From a virus, in IMG/VR virus record IMGVR_UViG_3300033146_004322, positions 1 through 21,396 of that record: DNA of 21,396 bases; one strand, given 5' to 3'. This document shows, piece by piece, positions 3,903 through 16,749 of this stretch. The stretch's first letter is position 1. Each line of letters opens with the position of its first letter. The translations under genes were made by a program, and so were the position numbers. Below the pieces are notes generated by a model. The model was not told where the DNA came from. It ran no database searches and worked only from the letters and a program-made list of their open reading frames with translations.

Positions 3903-4111
3903 AAGATTCAAGTTATATATCTTATGGTTGTAATGGAAAATTTTATCCAAAATTTGATAAAAATAATTTTAAGTGGTGTTATTTGTTTGGTAAAATGGTT
4001 AAAGTAACCATTAATGATACTTATTATAAAAAAGGTGAAGGTAAAATACATTTTGTTAGAACAGAACATGGAAATTTAAGACAAGTTCCGGCATATAAAT
4101 TAAAAAATTAA
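3899..4111 (+). CDS. Hypothetical protein, 70 aa
   Basis: It starts in an ATGA overlap with the previous gene. This is a small basic protein rich in Lys, Tyr and Phe, with alternating apolar and polar residues in GKMVKVTINDTYYKKGEGKI that suggest a small beta-barrel. It is the last gene of the 2796-4111 group; a new promoter begins at its stop codon. No family is recognised. Confidence 0.75.
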   Translation: MKDSSYISYGCNGKFYPKFDKNNFKWCYLFGKMVKVTINDTYYKKGEGKIHFVRTEHGNLRQVPAYKLKN

Positions 4112-4129
4112 ATACTTTTGGAGTATAAT
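4111..4129 (+). promoter_or_regulatory. Promoter of the GNAT/ABC/MBL cassette
   Basis: ACTTTTGGAG precedes TATAAT (4124-4129), 29 bases before the TTG start of the next gene. It differs from the repeated modules, having a T-rich stretch ending in G before the -10 box, and resembles the element at 18691-18703. The cassette therefore appears to be controlled differently from the early modules. Confidence 0.55.
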
Positions 4130-4157
4130 ATAATAAATATATAAAAAAGGAAATTAA

Positions 4158-5078
4158 TTGTTTAATATCAATAATTTTAAAGAAGGTGATGAAATTGAAA
4201 AATATGATTTTAAAAAAAATGTATTTTTTGAATGTTATTCTTCTGCTATAAATGGTGAAAAAGAAAAAGCCATAAACATTATTAAAAATCAAGATTTTTT
4301 ACAATATCATTATTTTGCTCAAGATTATGCTGCTGTAAAAAGTGCTTCATATATAATATTCATGTGTATAAAATATAATGATATTAAAACTTATGTTGGT
4401 TTTTTATCTATAGCTAGTCCCACATTAAATAAAATTTTAAGAAACAGATATTTTGGAAAAACATTTTTAAAAAAATATTATTCACATGATAAACGAAGTT
4501 TTTATAATATAACTAGAGTAGTTTTATTGCCTAGCTATAGAGGTTTAAGTCTTGGAAAATATTTTGTAGATTATACTTTAACAACCGTTATGGAAGAAAA
4601 AAATATAAATTTTCTTGAAATGTCTTCTAATATGTTACACACTTATGATTTTTCAGGAAATATATTCAATAAATTCTTCATTGATTCCAAAAACATTTTA
4701 AATAAAACACAATATGAATATTTGTTCAAAGGTCAAAAAGGAACAATGGAAGAAAAAAAGAAAAGAATTAAAGGATATAAAGGTGAATCAAAATTAATAG
4801 CTAATTATGTGTTTCATTTTAATCCAAAATTGTCTGATTTTTTTGTTTCTTTTTATAAAAAAGAATATGGAGTAAATATTGATTTTAACATAAATAATGA
4901 AATATCTGCAGAATATATTATAAAAGGTTATGATGAAAATGTTCCTTATATTTTATTAAAACATTCCAATAAATCTTATGATGAACTAAAAATTATAGTA
5001 GATGAAATGGAAAAAAATGAAAAATTGTTAAAAGAAGAAATCAAAAATGAAAAAGAAAAGGATTTTTTAGATGAATAA
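4158..5078 (+). CDS. GNAT-fold acyltransferase, possibly Mom-like
   Basis: In this 306-residue protein the segment YNITRVVLLPSYRGLSLG (about residues 116-133) carries the acyl-CoA-binding signature R128-G-x-S-x-G133 after a strand. This is motif A of the GNAT superfamily, with Ser in place of the middle Gly. A preceding strand with VGFLSIA (80-86) would form the core sheet. The TR-V-x-LP-x-YRG pattern is what I associate with Mom-type proteins, which modify adenine in phage Mu DNA, rather than with ordinary acetyltransferases; this is from memory and needs a profile search. The C-terminus is a charged coiled-coil-like tail (about 265-306). The start is TTG at 4158, with AAGGAA 5-10 bases upstream; no nearby in-frame ATG exists. 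It overlaps the ABC ATPase gene by 8 bases, so the two are probably made together. Confidence 0.7.
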   Translation: MFNINNFKEGDEIEKYDFKKNVFFECYSSAINGEKEKAINIIKNQDFLQYHYFAQDYAAVKSASYIIFMCIKYNDIKTYVGFLSIASPTLNKILRNRYFGKTFLKKYYSHDKRSFYNITRVVLLPSYRGLSLGKYFVDYTLTTVMEEKNINFLEMSSNMLHTYDFSGNIFNKFFIDSKNILNKTQYEYLFKGQKGTMEEKKKRIKGYKGESKLIANYVFHFNPKLSDFFVSFYKKEYGVNIDFNINNEISAEYIIKGYDENVPYILLKHSNKSYDELKIIVDEMEKNEKLLKEEIKNEKEKDFLDE

Positions 5079-5844
5079 AAAATATACATTTAATATCAAT
5101 GTTAAAAAAAATAAAGAAGAATATACTGAAAATGAAATTGATATTATCAATAATATTTTTGGAATGTTTGTTAAAAATATTTATTTTTCTTTTAATTGTA
5201 AAGTAATAGTAGAAAATGAAAAAATTATCAATTTTTCTGGTATATCAGGTTCTGGTAAAACAATTATTAAAAATGAAATTAAATATGCTTTAGAACAAGA
5301 AAATGATGAAAATTACAATATTTTAGATTTTGATGATTTGGAAAATTTTGAAAAATATTATGATAACACAATATTAGAATTGTTTGATATAACAAATAAA
5401 AATGATGAAATTTTAAAATTAATTAGTGGATTTGGTTTATTTGAAATGAGACTTTTGACTATGAAAATAAAAAATTTATCAAATGGTCAAAAAACAAGAT
5501 TGAAATATATTTTATTAATGAAACAAATAAATGAATCAAAAAAGAATTTTATTTTTATAGATGAATTTTTAACTTTTGTTGATGATTTAAGTGCTATTTC
5601 TTTTGCTAGATCAATGGAAGTTTTTCTTAAAACAAAGAAAAATGTTAAAATGTTTTGTTTTGGAGTTAACATGAATTTGATAGGTCAATTTGAAGATGTT
5701 ACTTATGTATTAGGAAATTCTTCAATTACAGCAATAGTTGAAAAAAATGTGGTAAAATATTTAGTAGATCAAGAACAAACTGAAATTTGTTTTTATAGAA
5801 ACATGGAAGAAAAAGAAGTAATATTAGATGAAGATGAATGGTAA
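5071..5844 (+). CDS. ABC-type ATPase, soluble and non-transport
   Basis: This 257-residue protein has the nucleotide-binding motifs in order. They are Walker A GISGSGKT (residues 57-64), the ABC signature LSNGQ (136-140) and Walker B FIFIDEF with D164 and E165 as metal-binding and catalytic residues. There are no membrane segments and no transporter permease nearby, so it is more like DNA- or RNA-associated ABC ATPases. The His of the H-loop is not evident: the equivalent stretch reads MFCFGVNM. The helical region between Walker A and the signature is short. It overlaps the GNAT gene by 8 bases and ends 3 bases before the MBL-fold gene. I infer that it powers or gates the acyltransferase, perhaps as a dimer on nucleic acid; the partner relationship rests on gene order only. 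Confidence 0.8.
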   Translation: MNKKYTFNINVKKNKEEYTENEIDIINNIFGMFVKNIYFSFNCKVIVENEKIINFSGISGSGKTIIKNEIKYALEQENDENYNILDFDDLENFEKYYDNTILELFDITNKNDEILKLISGFGLFEMRLLTMKIKNLSNGQKTRLKYILLMKQINESKKNFIFIDEFLTFVDDLSAISFARSMEVFLKTKKNVKMFCFGVNMNLIGQFEDVTYVLGNSSITAIVEKNVVKYLVDQEQTEICFYRNMEEKEVILDEDEW

Positions 5845-5847
5845 ATA

Positions 5848-6612
5848 ATGATTGAAAATGTACAAGTAATAGGTTCGGGTGGAGCATTTGATGATGAAAC
5901 AAATTCATCATTTTTGATTAATTTAAGTGGTACTTCTGTATTATATGATTGTGGATACAATGTTTTTAGTGAATTAAAAAGACTTGAAAAAGATGATGAA
6001 AACATTATTATAAAAATAAATCACATCATTATTTCACACATGGATGATGATCACATGGGTTCATTAAAAAGTTTATTATATTATAGATATTTTATGTTTG
6101 GTTTAACAACAGAAGTTTATATTGATGATGAAGAATATATCAAAGATATTAATTATGAAATAAAAGGTTCTCAAAAAGTTCCAGCAAATATTGTTAATTC
6201 ACAAAGATTTAAAACATTTAGTATAATGTATAATAATTTCACATTTATTGAAGGAAATCATCATATTCCTACCAAAGGCTTGATTGTTTATAATAATAAA
6301 CAAATTGTTCTTATTTCAGGTGACACTAAAGCAAAACCAGAAATAGAAAAAAAATATTGGAAAATTTATAATGAAATAGATGCTAAAAATGTTTGTACAA
6401 AATCATTAATATTTCATGATTTTAGTTTTTGGAATGCTCCATCAAGACAAGTTCACGCTTGTAAAGGTGATGTTGAGGTTGAATATACTATTGAATTTTT
6501 AGAAAAAGCAATTATGTATCATAACAATCAATCAAACTTAAAAGGTAATGTTTACACTTTAAAAACAAATGAATTAATTGGAAATGAAACCACTTTGAAA
6601 GAAGTCATATAG
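5848..6612 (+). CDS. Metallo-beta-lactamase-fold hydrolase
   Basis: In this 254-residue protein the metal-binding loop reads SHMDDDHMG. H64, D66, D68 and H69 form an HxDxDH motif, a variant of HxHxDH that I associate with ComEC-type nuclease domains. Other likely ligands are H138 or H139 (EGNHH), D159 (ISGDT) and H190 (FHDFSF). The N-terminal strand block with VLYDCGYN (D34) fits the fold. Candidate activities are nuclease, phosphodiesterase or thioesterase-like hydrolysis. It is the third gene of the promoter-to-terminator cassette, 3 bases after the ABC ATPase, and ends two bases before a strong terminator stem. The fold is well supported; the substrate is unknown. Confidence 0.85.
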   Translation: MIENVQVIGSGGAFDDETNSSFLINLSGTSVLYDCGYNVFSELKRLEKDDENIIIKINHIIISHMDDDHMGSLKSLLYYRYFMFGLTTEVYIDDEEYIKDINYEIKGSQKVPANIVNSQRFKTFSIMYNNFTFIEGNHHIPTKGLIVYNNKQIVLISGDTKAKPEIEKKYWKIYNEIDAKNVCTKSLIFHDFSFWNAPSRQVHACKGDVEVEYTIEFLEKAIMYHNNQSNLKGNVYTLKTNELIGNETTLKEVI

Positions 6613-12339: not shown

Positions 12340-13494
12340 ATGAATAATACTTCAGTATCAATATATAACTCTAATAAAATTGATTTCTCAAAAGAAAAAA
12401 TGTTTTTTGGAGAAGGTAAAAATAGTCAAAGATTTGATGTTTTAAAATATCCAATTTTAGACAAAAGCAATGATACACAACAAGGTTTTGATTGGAAACA
12501 TGATGAGATTCCACTTATAAAAGATTCAAAAGACCATAAAACTCAATCATCAAAATCACAATACTTTGTTATTGAAAAAACATTTCAAAAACTTATTTTC
12601 TTGGATTCAGTACAAGGTAGAGGTCCTGTTATGATTTTTGGACAAATAGCAACATTGCCTGAATTGGAAAATGTTATAAATGTATGGCAATATTTTGAAG
12701 GTAATAAACATTCAAGAACATATACAGAAATTTTGAGGTCATTATATAATAATCCTGATGAAATTTTTGATGAAGCATTTGATGTACAAGAACTACAAAA
12801 TGTTGCTAATAAGATTGGATCTGTATATGAAAAAACATATCAATCAGTTATAGAGTACATTTATAAAACACAAAGAAATATTGAATATACAGAAAATGAT
12901 AAATTCAGTTTAAAACAAGATTTGTTAAGATGTTTATTTGAAATTAATGCTTTGGAAGGTATAAGATTTTATAGTTCATTTGCTGCTATTTGGGCTATGG
13001 ATAAGGCACAAGGTTTGTATCCTGGATGTTCCGAAAATCTCCAATTTATTTGTAGGGATGAAAACGAACATTTAGCATTAACACAAAATATGCTTAAATT
13101 CCTTAGAAAAAATGAAGATGAAGAATTTATTGAAGCATATGAAAACATTAAGCAAGAACTTGAAGATAGATATTATGAAATTTATTTTGAAGAAATTGAG
13201 TGGATTAAATTTTTATTTAGTAAAGGTTCTTATATAGGAATGAATGAAGATATTTTAATTAACTATTTGAATTACATTACTATAAGAAGAATGAAATCAT
13301 TAGGTATTAATCCAACTAAAGAAAAATTAAGTGGTAAATATATCATAAAAAATCCACTACCTTGGATTGATAATTATATTAATATGGATAAAAATGAGAA
13401 GTTACCACAAGAGGAAAAAATCCTCAACTATATTACTGGTGGTGTTGAACAAGATGATTATGACAAAACCACTTTAAAAAACAAATACTTATAA
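12340..13494 (+). CDS. nrdB: Class Ia ribonucleotide reductase beta (radical) subunit
   Basis: It holds the di-iron tyrosyl-radical cofactor that starts ribonucleotide reduction on NrdA. At 384 residues it is the usual length. Recognisable parts are FLDSVQGRGP with ligand D89; HSRTYTE with H124 and the probable radical Tyr Y128; ALEGIRFYSSF with E206; and RDENEHLALTQNML with E241 and H244. One feature is odd: the first helix reads FEGNKH, so E120 and H124 are four apart rather than the usual ExxH spacing. The C-terminal KNKYL tail probably docks on NrdA. The ATG follows AAAGGAAATTA. nrdA begins 9 bases downstream in the same unit, so the two subunits are made together to feed phage DNA synthesis. 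Confidence 0.93.
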   Translation: MNNTSVSIYNSNKIDFSKEKMFFGEGKNSQRFDVLKYPILDKSNDTQQGFDWKHDEIPLIKDSKDHKTQSSKSQYFVIEKTFQKLIFLDSVQGRGPVMIFGQIATLPELENVINVWQYFEGNKHSRTYTEILRSLYNNPDEIFDEAFDVQELQNVANKIGSVYEKTYQSVIEYIYKTQRNIEYTENDKFSLKQDLLRCLFEINALEGIRFYSSFAAIWAMDKAQGLYPGCSENLQFICRDENEHLALTQNMLKFLRKNEDEEFIEAYENIKQELEDRYYEIYFEEIEWIKFLFSKGSYIGMNEDILINYLNYITIRRMKSLGINPTKEKLSGKYIIKNPLPWIDNYINMDKNEKLPQEEKILNYITGGVEQDDYDKTTLKNKYL

Positions 13495-13503
13495 AGGAAA
13501 AAA

Positions 13504-14502
13504 GTGAAAAAACCTATAAAAATTAAAAAATCAAATGGTAGTTTTGAAGACTATAATCCTCAAAAATTTCATAATAAAGTATTTTATGCTATTGATGGTT
13601 TGAAGACATTGTCTGCTTCTGAAATTGAAATGAATGCAGCTTCAATGATTATAAATGGTAGTTCAAGTAAAGATATTCAAAAAGCACTCATTGAATCTAC
13701 TGCTGATATGATAAGTGAAAAATTACCTGAAGCAGAAATAGCCGCAGCTAGACTACTAAATCAAAGCATAAGAAAAACAGTATATAAACAATATAAACCA
13801 AAGTCATTAATGGAAACAATCAATAAAAATATTGAATTAGGAATTTATGATGATGAATATTTGTTTGATAATTATAGTTTAGAGGAGTTAGAAGAGTATT
13901 CAAATTATTTAAAATATGAAAGAGATGATGATTTTGTATATAGTGGTTTGAAAAAAATAAAAGATAGTTATTTAGTTAAACAACATGGAGAAATTAAAGA
14001 AACTCCTCAAGAAATGTTTATGTTAATTAATATTTTTGCTTTTGCTAAATACAAAGGTGAATTAAGAAAAAAATGGGTAAAAGAAGGTTATGATATTCTA
14101 AGTAAATTTGAAGCAAGTTTACCTACACCTGTTATGATTCAATTAAGAACCATGTTTCGTAAATATGTTTCTTGTAATATCATTCCTTTTGGAGATTCAA
14201 GAGAGTCTTTAGCAAATGGGATTAAATCTATGTACACTTTGGTATCTGCTGGAGCAGGACTTGGATTAAGTGCTGGAGATATTAGAGGACTTGATGCTGA
14301 TATTGATAATGGACGTATTAAACATACAGGTTTGCAACCTTTAATGAAGTCCTTTGAAAAAGCAAGTAAAGCATTTGTGCAACCGGATAGGGATGGCTGT
14401 CATTTTTTGGGAACTGAAGTAGAAATTCTGGAAAGTTTTGAAGTAGATGGTGTATTATATGAAGCAACAATTGATAATTTAAAAAAGTTCAACCTCTATT
14501 AG
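13504..14502 (+). CDS. nrdA: Ribonucleotide reductase alpha, N-terminal half, ending in a probable N-intein
   Basis: This 332-residue piece starts at GTG (after AAAGGA). Residues 1-298 are NrdA: an ATP-cone-like regulatory domain (about 4-92) and the start of the catalytic barrel, with C224 in KYVSCNIIPFGDS matching the active-site disulfide Cys225 of E. coli. The GLGLSAGDIRGL stretch (252-263) is the conserved loop. NrdA similarity stops at QPDRDG (293-298). C299 begins a 34-residue tail whose CHFLGTEVEIL matches intein block A (C-x-x-x-G-T-x-V). The stop TAG at 14500 lies at the start of the second arm of a stem-loop. Without splicing, the product lacks most of the catalytic barrel, so it should be inactive. 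The joining partner is encoded from 14531. Confidence 0.9.
   Translation: MKKPIKIKKSNGSFEDYNPQKFHNKVFYAIDGLKTLSASEIEMNAASMIINGSSSKDIQKALIESTADMISEKLPEAEIAAARLLNQSIRKTVYKQYKPKSLMETINKNIELGIYDDEYLFDNYSLEELEEYSNYLKYERDDDFVYSGLKKIKDSYLVKQHGEIKETPQEMFMLINIFAFAKYKGELRKKWVKEGYDILSKFEASLPTPVMIQLRTMFRKYVSCNIIPFGDSRESLANGIKSMYTLVSAGAGLGLSAGDIRGLDADIDNGRIKHTGLQPLMKSFEKASKAFVQPDRDGCHFLGTEVEILESFEVDGVLYEATIDNLKKFNLY
14398..14499 (+). other. Probable split-intein N-fragment, 34 residues
   Basis: The codons from C299 of the first NrdA piece to its stop encode a fragment with the intein first-residue Cys and block A. NrdA sequence stops immediately before Cys, at a position aligning to the GVRGG/AATLFYP region of E. 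coli NrdA. Block B is not here but in the downstream fragment, so the break lies between blocks A and B rather than at the common site between B and F. Confidence 0.8.
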
Positions 14503-14509
14503 GTTGAAC
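14487..14509 (+). other. Perfect 9-bp stem-loop at the NrdA break
   Basis: GTTCAACCT (14487-14495) pairs with AGGTTGAAC (14501-14509) around a CTATT loop. The last two bases of the loop and the first base of the second arm bracket the TAG stop of the first NrdA piece (14500-14502). A run of six A (14481-14486) abuts the stem on its left. Read on the minus strand, the stem is followed by TTTTTT and would look like an intrinsic terminator, but no minus-strand gene lies here. Confidence 0.85.
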
Positions 14510-14530
14510 AAAAATACAAAAAGGAACAAA

Positions 14531-14932
14531 ATGAAAATTAAATTCAATTATAAAAGAACAACCATTGAAAATGTAAATGAAGGTGATTATATTAAGAGTT
14601 TCAACATCAAAACTAATACAATAGAACCCAAAAGAGTAAAACAAACACTTAGGCCTATTGTAGAAACAGATAATCAACTAAAAATAGAAACAAAGAATGG
14701 TTATATTATTAATTCCAAAAAACACCCTGTACTAATATACAAAAATGAAGAATACAGATATATTAATGCTGAAGAATTAAGAATTGGTGATTTACTTTTA
14801 TCCACAAATAATAGGTTGGAATCTGTTATAAAAATTTCAAATCCTAATCTTGATACCCAATTTTATGATTTAAGTGTGGATGAGAATGAAAACTTTTTCG
14901 CAGGATATGATACATTATATTTAGGACATAAC
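14531..14932 (+). other. Probable split-intein C-fragment, 134 residues
   Basis: ENVNEGDYIKSFN (13-25) is a typical HINT strand. NGYIINSKKHPVLIY (56-70) is block B with S-x-x-H65 in place of T-x-x-H. ELRIGDLLLS (82-91) follows. FYDLSVDENENFFAG (111-125) is block F, and LYLGHN (129-134) before Ser is block G with the penultimate His and terminal Asn. With the 34-residue upstream fragment the total is 168 residues, the size of a mini-intein with no homing endonuclease. Confidence 0.85.
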
Positions 14933-16498
14933 AGTTCTACAGCATATTATCCTTTTTATCATACTGAAATAGAACATATTATGGTTATGGGTAATAATAA
15001 AGGTACTGAAAATTCAAGAGTAAGAGATGTTGATCATTGTATCATTTTTAATAAATTGTTTTTTGAAAGATACAAAAATGATGAAGACATTACTTTATTT
15101 TTTATGAATGATGTACCCGATTTACAATCATATAATGGTTTTTATGATGAGTTCAAAACTAAATATGAATATTATGAGAAAACAATTCCAAAATATAAAC
15201 AGAAAAAAATATCTGCTGATAAATTGTTTAATAGATTTTTAGATGAAAGATTTTTACAAGCAAGAGAATATGTGCTGTTTGCCGATGAATTTCAACATCA
15301 TAGTGCTTTTGATATTCCAGTTAAAACTTCAAATTTATGTTTGGAAATAGAAGTCCCGCATTATCCTATGCAAGAAAATATTAATATTAAAAGAAATATT
15401 GTATTTAAAAATACAGAAGCAAGAAAAGAATATTATGAATTAAGAAAACAAACATATTTTCATCAAACAAATGAAAAAGAAGCAAACAAATTAAAACAAA
15501 AAATGAGAACAACATATAATTTTGCTTATGTTGATTTAAATGCTGAAGTAGATGAAACTAATGATTGGGATTATTTTGATTTAAATGGTTATGTTAATTT
15601 GAGTGAAATTGGTGTATGTATTTTAGGTGGTGTCAATGTAGGACATTGTAAAAATAATAAAAGATTGAAAATTGTATCAGAATATTTAGTAAGATTATTA
15701 GAAGAACTAATAGATTATAATGATTGGGATTTACCTGAAACTGAAAAAGCCGCTAAAATGAGAAGAACATTGGGTATTGGTTTTAGTGATGTATTTCATG
15801 ATTTGGCTATTAATAAAACTTTTTATAACACTAAAGAAGGAAGACAACATATAGCAGATAAAATTGAAATATGTTCTTATTCAATGATTAAAACTTCAGT
15901 TGAATTAGCAAAAGAAAAAGGAAAATGTCAATTATTTTCAGATACCAAATATTCTAAAGGAATTTTACCTATTGACACATATAATAAAAATGTAGATGAA
16001 CTTATTGATGATGTAAAATTGGATTGGGAATCTTTGAGAAAAGATGTTATTGAATATGGTATGAGACACAGTACACTTATGGCAAATGCACCGTTTGGGA
16101 GCTCGTCTCAAGTTTCTAATTCAACTCCAGGAATTGAACCACCAAGAGATATTGCTAATACCAAAAAAGGTGTTACTAAATTGGTACCTGATATTAAATT
16201 TAAAAATTATTATACAACTACTTGGGGTGATGATTTTAATAATATTGATTATTTCAAATTTGTGGCTGTTCTTCAAAAATTTATGGACCAAACAATAAGC
16301 ACTAATCAATATGTAAATCTTTTGAAAACTTCTAATGGAAAAGTAAAGAAGTCAACATTAATTGATGAAACATTATCAGCAATGTATTATGGACTTAAAA
16401 CATTGTATTATTTGAATATAAGAAGTACCAATACAAAAGATGGTGAAGACTTAGAAGAGGAAACAACATCATGTGATAGTGGTGGATGTGAAGTATAA
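14531..16498 (+). CDS. nrdA: Ribonucleotide reductase alpha, C-terminal half, preceded by a probable C-intein
   Basis: I take the ATG at 14531, behind AAAAAGGAAC, over the TTG at 14504. Of 655 residues, 1-134 are intein-like and S135 onward is NrdA: YYPFYHTEIEHI and SRVRDVDH continue exactly where the first piece stopped. Active-site residues are N268, C270 and E272 (NLCLE), C363 (IGVCIL), the radical-relay pair Y626-Y627 (LYYLN) and the C-terminal redox pair C648 and C653 (CDSGGC). The distance C270 to C363 is 93 residues against 23 in E. coli, so about 70 extra charged residues are inserted there. It is 35 bases before the Acb2-like gene's ribosome binding region. With the N-terminal piece it would make a complete reductase of about 819 residues after splicing. 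Confidence 0.92.
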   Translation: MKIKFNYKRTTIENVNEGDYIKSFNIKTNTIEPKRVKQTLRPIVETDNQLKIETKNGYIINSKKHPVLIYKNEEYRYINAEELRIGDLLLSTNNRLESVIKISNPNLDTQFYDLSVDENENFFAGYDTLYLGHNSSTAYYPFYHTEIEHIMVMGNNKGTENSRVRDVDHCIIFNKLFFERYKNDEDITLFFMNDVPDLQSYNGFYDEFKTKYEYYEKTIPKYKQKKISADKLFNRFLDERFLQAREYVLFADEFQHHSAFDIPVKTSNLCLEIEVPHYPMQENINIKRNIVFKNTEARKEYYELRKQTYFHQTNEKEANKLKQKMRTTYNFAYVDLNAEVDETNDWDYFDLNGYVNLSEIGVCILGGVNVGHCKNNKRLKIVSEYLVRLLEELIDYNDWDLPETEKAAKMRRTLGIGFSDVFHDLAINKTFYNTKEGRQHIADKIEICSYSMIKTSVELAKEKGKCQLFSDTKYSKGILPIDTYNKNVDELIDDVKLDWESLRKDVIEYGMRHSTLMANAPFGSSSQVSNSTPGIEPPRDIANTKKGVTKLVPDIKFKNYYTTTWGDDFNNIDYFKFVAVLQKFMDQTISTNQYVNLLKTSNGKVKKSTLIDETLSAMYYGLKTLYYLNIRSTNTKDGEDLEEETTSCDSGGCEV

Positions 16499-16524: not shown

Positions 16525-16749
16525 ATGGATAATCAACATAAAAAAATTAAAGGTTATAGGGATTTAACACAAGAAGAAATTGATATGATGAATGAAGCCA
16601 AAGAATTGGCTTCAAAAGTGGGTAAACTTTGTGATAAATTAAATAAGATTGATACTTTAGATCAACAATGGATTAATATTGGAAAAACAGATTTACAAAA
16701 AGGATTTATGTCTTTGATTAGAGGAATAGCACAACCAAATTCTTTTTAA
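16525..16749 (+). CDS. acb2: Acb2-like anti-CBASS cyclic-nucleotide sponge
   Basis: This 74-residue protein reads [20 protein letters not shown] (5-24) at its N-terminus. The C-terminal half has [19 protein letters not shown] and ends IAQPNSF. This matches the pattern of the Acb2 (T4 Vs.4)/Tad1 hairpin family, small phage proteins that sequester cyclic di- and trinucleotides and so block CBASS defence. Y11 and K26 are at positions I recall as ligand-contacting in the Pseudomonas phage protein. Two helices with a turn (about 38-47) fit the hairpin that forms hexamers. ATG follows AAAGGAATAAA. The next gene resembles Acb1, a second anti-CBASS protein. Identified by pattern from memory, not by search. 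Confidence 0.85.

Follow-up and report, generated by a model that had tools for sequence, protein, structure and literature searches.

The sequence analysed here, the 21,396-nt IMG/VR virus record IMGVR_UViG_3300033146_004322 (hereafter the window), is one contig assembled from a metagenome. In it, the large ribonucleotide reductase subunit, NrdA, is encoded by two genes, nrdA-N and nrdA-C, separated by a gap of 28 bp (Table 1). The first product ends in 34 residues that start at C299 (codon at 14398) and read, in translation, CHFLGTEVEILESFEVDGVLYEATIDNLKKFNLY up to the stop codon at 14500-14502, and the second opens with 134 residues whose C-terminus reads YDLSVDENENFFAGYDTLYLGHN, followed by the extein SSTAYYPFYH. 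The initial annotation had proposed that these two stretches, at 14398-14932, are the halves of a split intein, with the first carrying block A and the second block B, block F and a terminal GHN before Ser; the coordinates and both fragment lengths agreed with the translation, and the assigned blocks were recovered by alignment to an intein of Campylobacter phage IBB_35 and by profile matches (see below).

The NrdA sequence resumes exactly after the GHN, also as originally proposed. In the Pfam search, nrdA-N contained the ATP-cone and Ribonuc_red_lgN domains and positions 1-72 of the Ribonuc_red_lgC profile, where the match breaks off to restart at position 79/80 in the second open reading frame (ORF); the nrdA-N product aligns with E. 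coli NrdA as far as residue 293. Residues 1-298 and the 521 residues following the GHN make up a complete 819-aa NrdA with the junction QPDRDG/SSTAYY (here and below, a slash marks the insertion point). When aligned to E. coli NrdA, whose residue numbers are used here, the NrdA-N product holds the equivalent of C225, and the NrdA-C product those of C439 and C462 (radical and active-site cysteines), of the tyrosines Tyr730/731 and of the Cys pair at the C-terminus. Since the catalytic residues are divided between the two pieces, neither product alone can be a reductase.

Table 1 Coordinates of the features at the divided nrdA locus
Feature	Position	Strand	Description
nrdB, small subunit	12340..13494	+	phrog_86, E 9e-95; directly upstream of nrdA-N, same orientation
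nrdA-N	13504..14502	+	332 aa; NrdA residues 1-298 and 34-residue intein-N; GTG start, TAG stop
Intein-N fragment	14398..14499	+	34 aa; Cys1 with block A, followed by short helix
Perfect 9-bp hairpin, GTTCAACCT-ctatt-AGGTTGAAC	14487..14509	+	overlaps stop codon
Shine-Dalgarno AAAGGA	14520..14525	+	5 nt ahead of second-gene ATG (14531)
Intein-C fragment	14531..14932	+	134 aa; N2 region, block B (NSKKH), block F (YDLSVDENENFFAG), block G (LGHN)
nrdA-C	14531..16498	+	655 aa; ATG start; intein-C and NrdA residues 299-819

The same protein occurs without the insert in an uncultured relative (L005), in which NrdA reads KAFVQPDRDG/SSTAYYPFYH without interruption (QPDRDGSSTAYY; KAFVQPDRDGSSTAYYPFYH) and is 75-76% identical to the window exteins, indicating that the insertion is not a chance feature. 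NrdA of two other loci (L004 and L008) likewise lacks an interruption at this point. Conversely, IBB_35 has a contiguous 169-aa intein, annotated as such in the deposited record, at the homologous NrdA site. The 34+134 (168) residues of the window align with it from end to end at 40% identity, the intein-C part reaches 44%, and the 34-residue intein-N alone aligned to the block-A region of IBB_35 better than 1,999 of 2,000 shuffles. Both share the NrdA site (RGG/SSN in IBB_35, RDG/SST in the window), Cys1 and Ser+1, the HN end and the length (169 versus 34+134 aa), whereas the intein is contiguous in IBB_35 and distributed over two genes in the window. Because its relative at the same site is contiguous, the window element can be read as the split form of a known contiguous intein. 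Searches with the window intein-C alone, the window/IBB_35 pair or the IBB_35 intein found no close relatives in IMG/VR or in the GTDB genomes; one IMG/VR match (L015) proved to be a chance match inside another protein.

The second fragment matched the Intein_splicing family PF14890 (E 3e-10) and TIGR01443, the intein C-terminus, both above the family cut-offs. A position-1 nucleophile with block A is present (Cys at 14398, aligned to IBB_35 block A), as are the T/S-x-x-H of block B (SKKH, aligned with SKDH/STNH in relatives), the Asp of block F (YDLSV) and the His-Asn of block G before Ser (LGHN/S). Since Cys1, the block-B S-x-x-H, the block-F Asp, the GHN and Ser+1 are all in place, class 1 splicing chemistry, with a thioester followed by an oxoester, is expected.

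We then modelled the joined intein from a 12-row alignment in which the other rows were the fetched loci, bridging the gap in silico with TAGG read as Arg. The combined fragments were predicted to adopt the HINT fold on which the initial annotation had made its claim depend (predicted local distance difference test score, pLDDT, 91.0; predicted template modelling score, pTM, 0.83), with low confidence at the join only. A single-sequence AlphaFold model of the joined intein (pLDDT 36) was discarded. The closest solved inteins in Foldseek and VIA-align 2 comparisons were NpuDnaB (Z 20.4, root-mean-square deviation 1.5 over 131 residues), NrdJ-1 (Z 19.3), gp41-1 (Z 18.8) and VidaL (Z 17.2), the scores to solved inteins spanning about 15-20. 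The model places a helix at 25-30 and the break at residue 34, after the first helix, which bears out the early split between blocks A and B, of the AceL-TerL kind, that had been suggested from the letters alone.

From the sequence and the model, we consider it very likely that a class 1 mini-intein, inserted between G298 and S299 of NrdA, is broken into two genes after the first HINT helix and would act by trans-splicing. Several observations weigh against this conclusion. Of the two profiles that the initial annotation had named, TIGR01445 gave no match to the intein-N alone at E<=1, so that the assignment of this fragment rests on the IBB_35 alignment, its position and the joined fold model. 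At the position of the block-F His of IBB_35, the window intein has Glu; the alignment shows Glu there also in PI-PkoII, with which it shares the NENF motif. In the model, the halves are linked by an artificial linker of 10-11 residues, and it is therefore a test of the fold, not of fragment association. Moreover, one A less in the A6 run at 14481-14486 would give a single continuous ORF. This last point underlies the main alternative, namely that the intein is contiguous in nature and the apparent split is a one-base insertion error in the assembly. In the +1 frame, the reading indeed continues uninterrupted from a point shortly ahead of the stop into and through the second gene (SSTSIRLNKNTKRNK-MKIKF), the IBB_35 relative is contiguous, and the window is one metagenomic contig of which an exact search with the hairpin found no second copy. 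The would-be linker, however, holds AAAGGA 5 bases before the ATG, and AAGGA lies at this distance from 12 of the 28 mapped ATG starts, as compared with only 3 of the 569 other ATGs; judged from its sequence, the second gene has a strong ribosome-binding site of its own. Also within the linker would be the perfect hairpin that spans the stop codon. Its fold energy is -11.9 kcal/mol (z -2.75), it resembles a terminator on the minus strand only, where TTTTTT follows, and five shuffles of the whole window yielded no perfect hairpin of 9 bp. In addition, the fused intein would measure 178 aa, as compared with 169 in IBB_35 and 168 for the split halves together, and the isolate KARL-1 and three other contigs carry related NrdA inteins that are broken in this same region. 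An assembly error is thus unlikely in our judgement. Programmed -1 frameshifting at A AAA AAG, 5' of the hairpin, was rejected because translation in the -1 frame would end within 7 codons (VQPLLG, then stop) and the second gene is in the +1 frame. An intron-split gene of the group I type was also discarded: the window had no Rfam match at gathering thresholds, and the gap is 28 bp.

Two further explanations accept the split but not the splicing. NrdA might consist of two non-covalently associated chains with the intein halves as dead tails, as a split phage NrdA working without splicing is known in Aeh1 (PMC3653736); but every catalytic residue of the intein is kept, the intein-C is conserved to IBB_35 (44% identity), and the tails would lie inside the barrel at a conserved loop, so that we regard this as quite improbable. 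The locus might alternatively be decaying, with a degenerate nrdA and an intein falling apart, which is how the interrupted nrdA genes of Campylobacter phages have been read (PMC3653736). Here, the two exteins are intact, with 75-76% identity to the uninterrupted relative, codon positions 1+2 are far better kept than position 3 (0.78-0.86 versus 0.52-0.53), and all catalytic residues are present, leaving decay the least probable of the explanations considered.

If the split intein is active, a single mRNA would yield both precursors, and the intein-N, of 34 residues, would dock onto the 134-residue intein-C. Cys1 would then form the thioester, the chain would pass to Ser+1 and the last Asn would cyclise, releasing the intein pieces and ligating QPDRDG to SSTAYY to give the 819-aa NrdA. 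The break most likely postdates the entry of a contiguous intein into the site. A search of the window gap for remains of an endonuclease gene found none; because the gap holds neither such a gene nor a trace of one, the break would more readily be explained if a surface loop had acquired a stop together with a new ribosome-binding site.

The search with the IBB_35 intein also matched NrdA inteins of KARL-1, Thanatos-1/2, SUMAE and VPALA, which sit about 9 residues upstream of the window site, at S/CSQGG or SC/SQGG. In Acinetobacter phage KARL-1, nrdA is split: a 12-aa intein-N (CLTPDTKVEILV, then stop) is followed by a 299-aa ORF (L016 3127-4026) with matches to homing-endonuclease PHROGs, phrog_3339 among them, and then by the intein-C. 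Only the two flanks match in Konradin and Apostate, which are 97%-identical sisters of KARL-1 (793 record versus 2,101 query bases, 1,308 fewer). Because these sister phages lack the whole insert, the intein-N, the endonuclease gene and the intein-C appear to enter as one insert in KARL-1. The KARL-1 intein resembles that of the window in its host protein, its early split and its related intein-C (28% identity over the joined intein), and differs in its site about 9 residues upstream (S/CSQGG), its 12-aa intein-N and the endonuclease gene in the break. The fractured-gene arrangement is accordingly present in KARL-1 and absent from the window, with its 28-bp gap. Two IMG/VR contigs (L022 and L025) have the KARL-1 layout at the upstream site; their break ORFs are homologous to each other (37% identity, E 4e-59) and weakly similar to that of KARL-1, and matched no Pfam or PHROG family. 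A further contig (L026) is split there too, with a gap of just 140 bp, which weakly resembles the end of the L022 ORF (blastx E 0.11). In three others (L023, L024 and L027), the intein is uninterrupted at the upstream break.

In a tree of 12 inteins, the window intein paired with the contiguous one of IBB_35 (99/97), apart from the inteins of the other site (99/97); its terminal branch is long (2.88), for which reason the branch lengths should be read cautiously. Because the tree separates the window's split from the others, at least two changes between the split and contiguous states are required, and the fusion of a split form, instead of repeated splitting, may be an alternative history. 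A joint account would be that related NrdA inteins occupy two nearby sites and that early splitting has changed at least twice, with the KARL-1-type combination of intein-N, endonuclease-type gene and intein-C moving as one unit and the gene-less split of the window arising separately when the alpha1 loop gained a stop and a ribosome-binding site; we regard this account as evenly balanced between right and wrong.

Other inteins were noticed among the fetched loci. L004 (~5290-5920) contains a different NrdA intein, at SNL/CTEIS, that is split into two ORFs at the usual late position. The NrdA of L027 has a second intein (4838-6050; CLVGETS...), interrupted by a separate 270-aa ORF that on visual inspection resembles a GIY-YIG nuclease; its C part picks up again at DVFDITVEDNHNFYANGILVHN. 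In the Campylobacter phages CPt10 and CC_R7 (L013/L014), nrdA appears to hold a split intein, small ORFs lying in its break, and a further contiguous intein. These genes are called disrupted or pseudogenes in the records and in PMC3653736; because the interruptions look like inteins, they may be functional after splicing. Beside phage structural genes, L046 (IMGVR_UViG_3300044298_002042) encodes a 538-aa ORF (3998-5605) with a C-intein-like start (NHN before Lys) and a block-A-like end (CLEGNVKIAMGDKDGE, then stop). The halves are thus reversed on one chain, an order resembling protein-cyclising constructs, and the +1 residue is not Cys, Ser or Thr.

Besides nrdB, the genes around the window locus encode a tail tube, a tail sheath stabiliser, a head maturation protease, a DNA ligase and an RNA ligase. 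Since phage structural and replication genes flank the locus, the source of the window fits a T4-like myovirus. Directly 3' of nrdA-C lies a 74-aa ORF (16525-16749, +) with a match to the Acb2/Tad1 hairpin domain (PF24729, E 5.5e-15), a family described as sponging up nucleotide signals to counter CBASS and Thoeris defence.

Naturally split inteins with a short N-terminal piece are few, and the literature found names four: AceL-TerL, GOS-TerL, VidaL and PolB16 OarG. On the evidence of sequence and model, the window intein very probably adds a member to the naturally, atypically split inteins, with an S2-type split in NrdA; no report of an early-split intein in NrdA appeared in the literature found, several key papers lying outside the search coverage. 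Short-N split inteins are valued as tools for protein labelling, for which the short piece can be made by synthesis. The window and IBB_35 inteins would form a natural split/contiguous pair at one protein site, bearing on how an intein becomes split and at what cost, and, if the split is genuine, the two forms would let the step from cis- to trans-splicing be tested directly. As KARL-1 and its sister phages suggest, an early-split intein that harbours an endonuclease gene in its break can travel as one unit.

The S2 position denotes a break after the first helix, as in AceL-TerL and GOS-TerL, and the intein-N of atypically split inteins measures 15-37 aa (PMC13014065). By the modelled position of its break and the length of its intein-N, the window intein falls within the S2-type atypically split inteins. 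It shares with AceL-TerL and GOS-TerL the natural split after the first helix and a similar intein-N (25 and 37 aa, respectively, versus 34), but these two reside in terminase and have laboratory-proven activity, whereas the activity of the window intein is a prediction from sequence and model. The likeness to the TerL inteins lies in the split position, the nearest sequence kin found being the IBB_35 NrdA intein. VidaL has the same fold as the window model, although it (intein-N 16 aa) and PolB16 OarG (15/168) break earlier, after the second strand (S1); in intein-N length, KARL-1, L022, L025 and L026 are closer to these two than the window is. The split intein AceL NrdHF likewise interrupts a phage-like ribonucleotide reductase gene, in a fractured-gene layout, but it combines a canonical 98/48 split with class 3 chemistry, resides in the beta subunit and has a GIY-YIG endonuclease gene in its break (PMC7891396). 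Finally, Aeh1 also produces a phage NrdA from two genes, but without an intein, its halves assembling non-covalently (PMC3653736).
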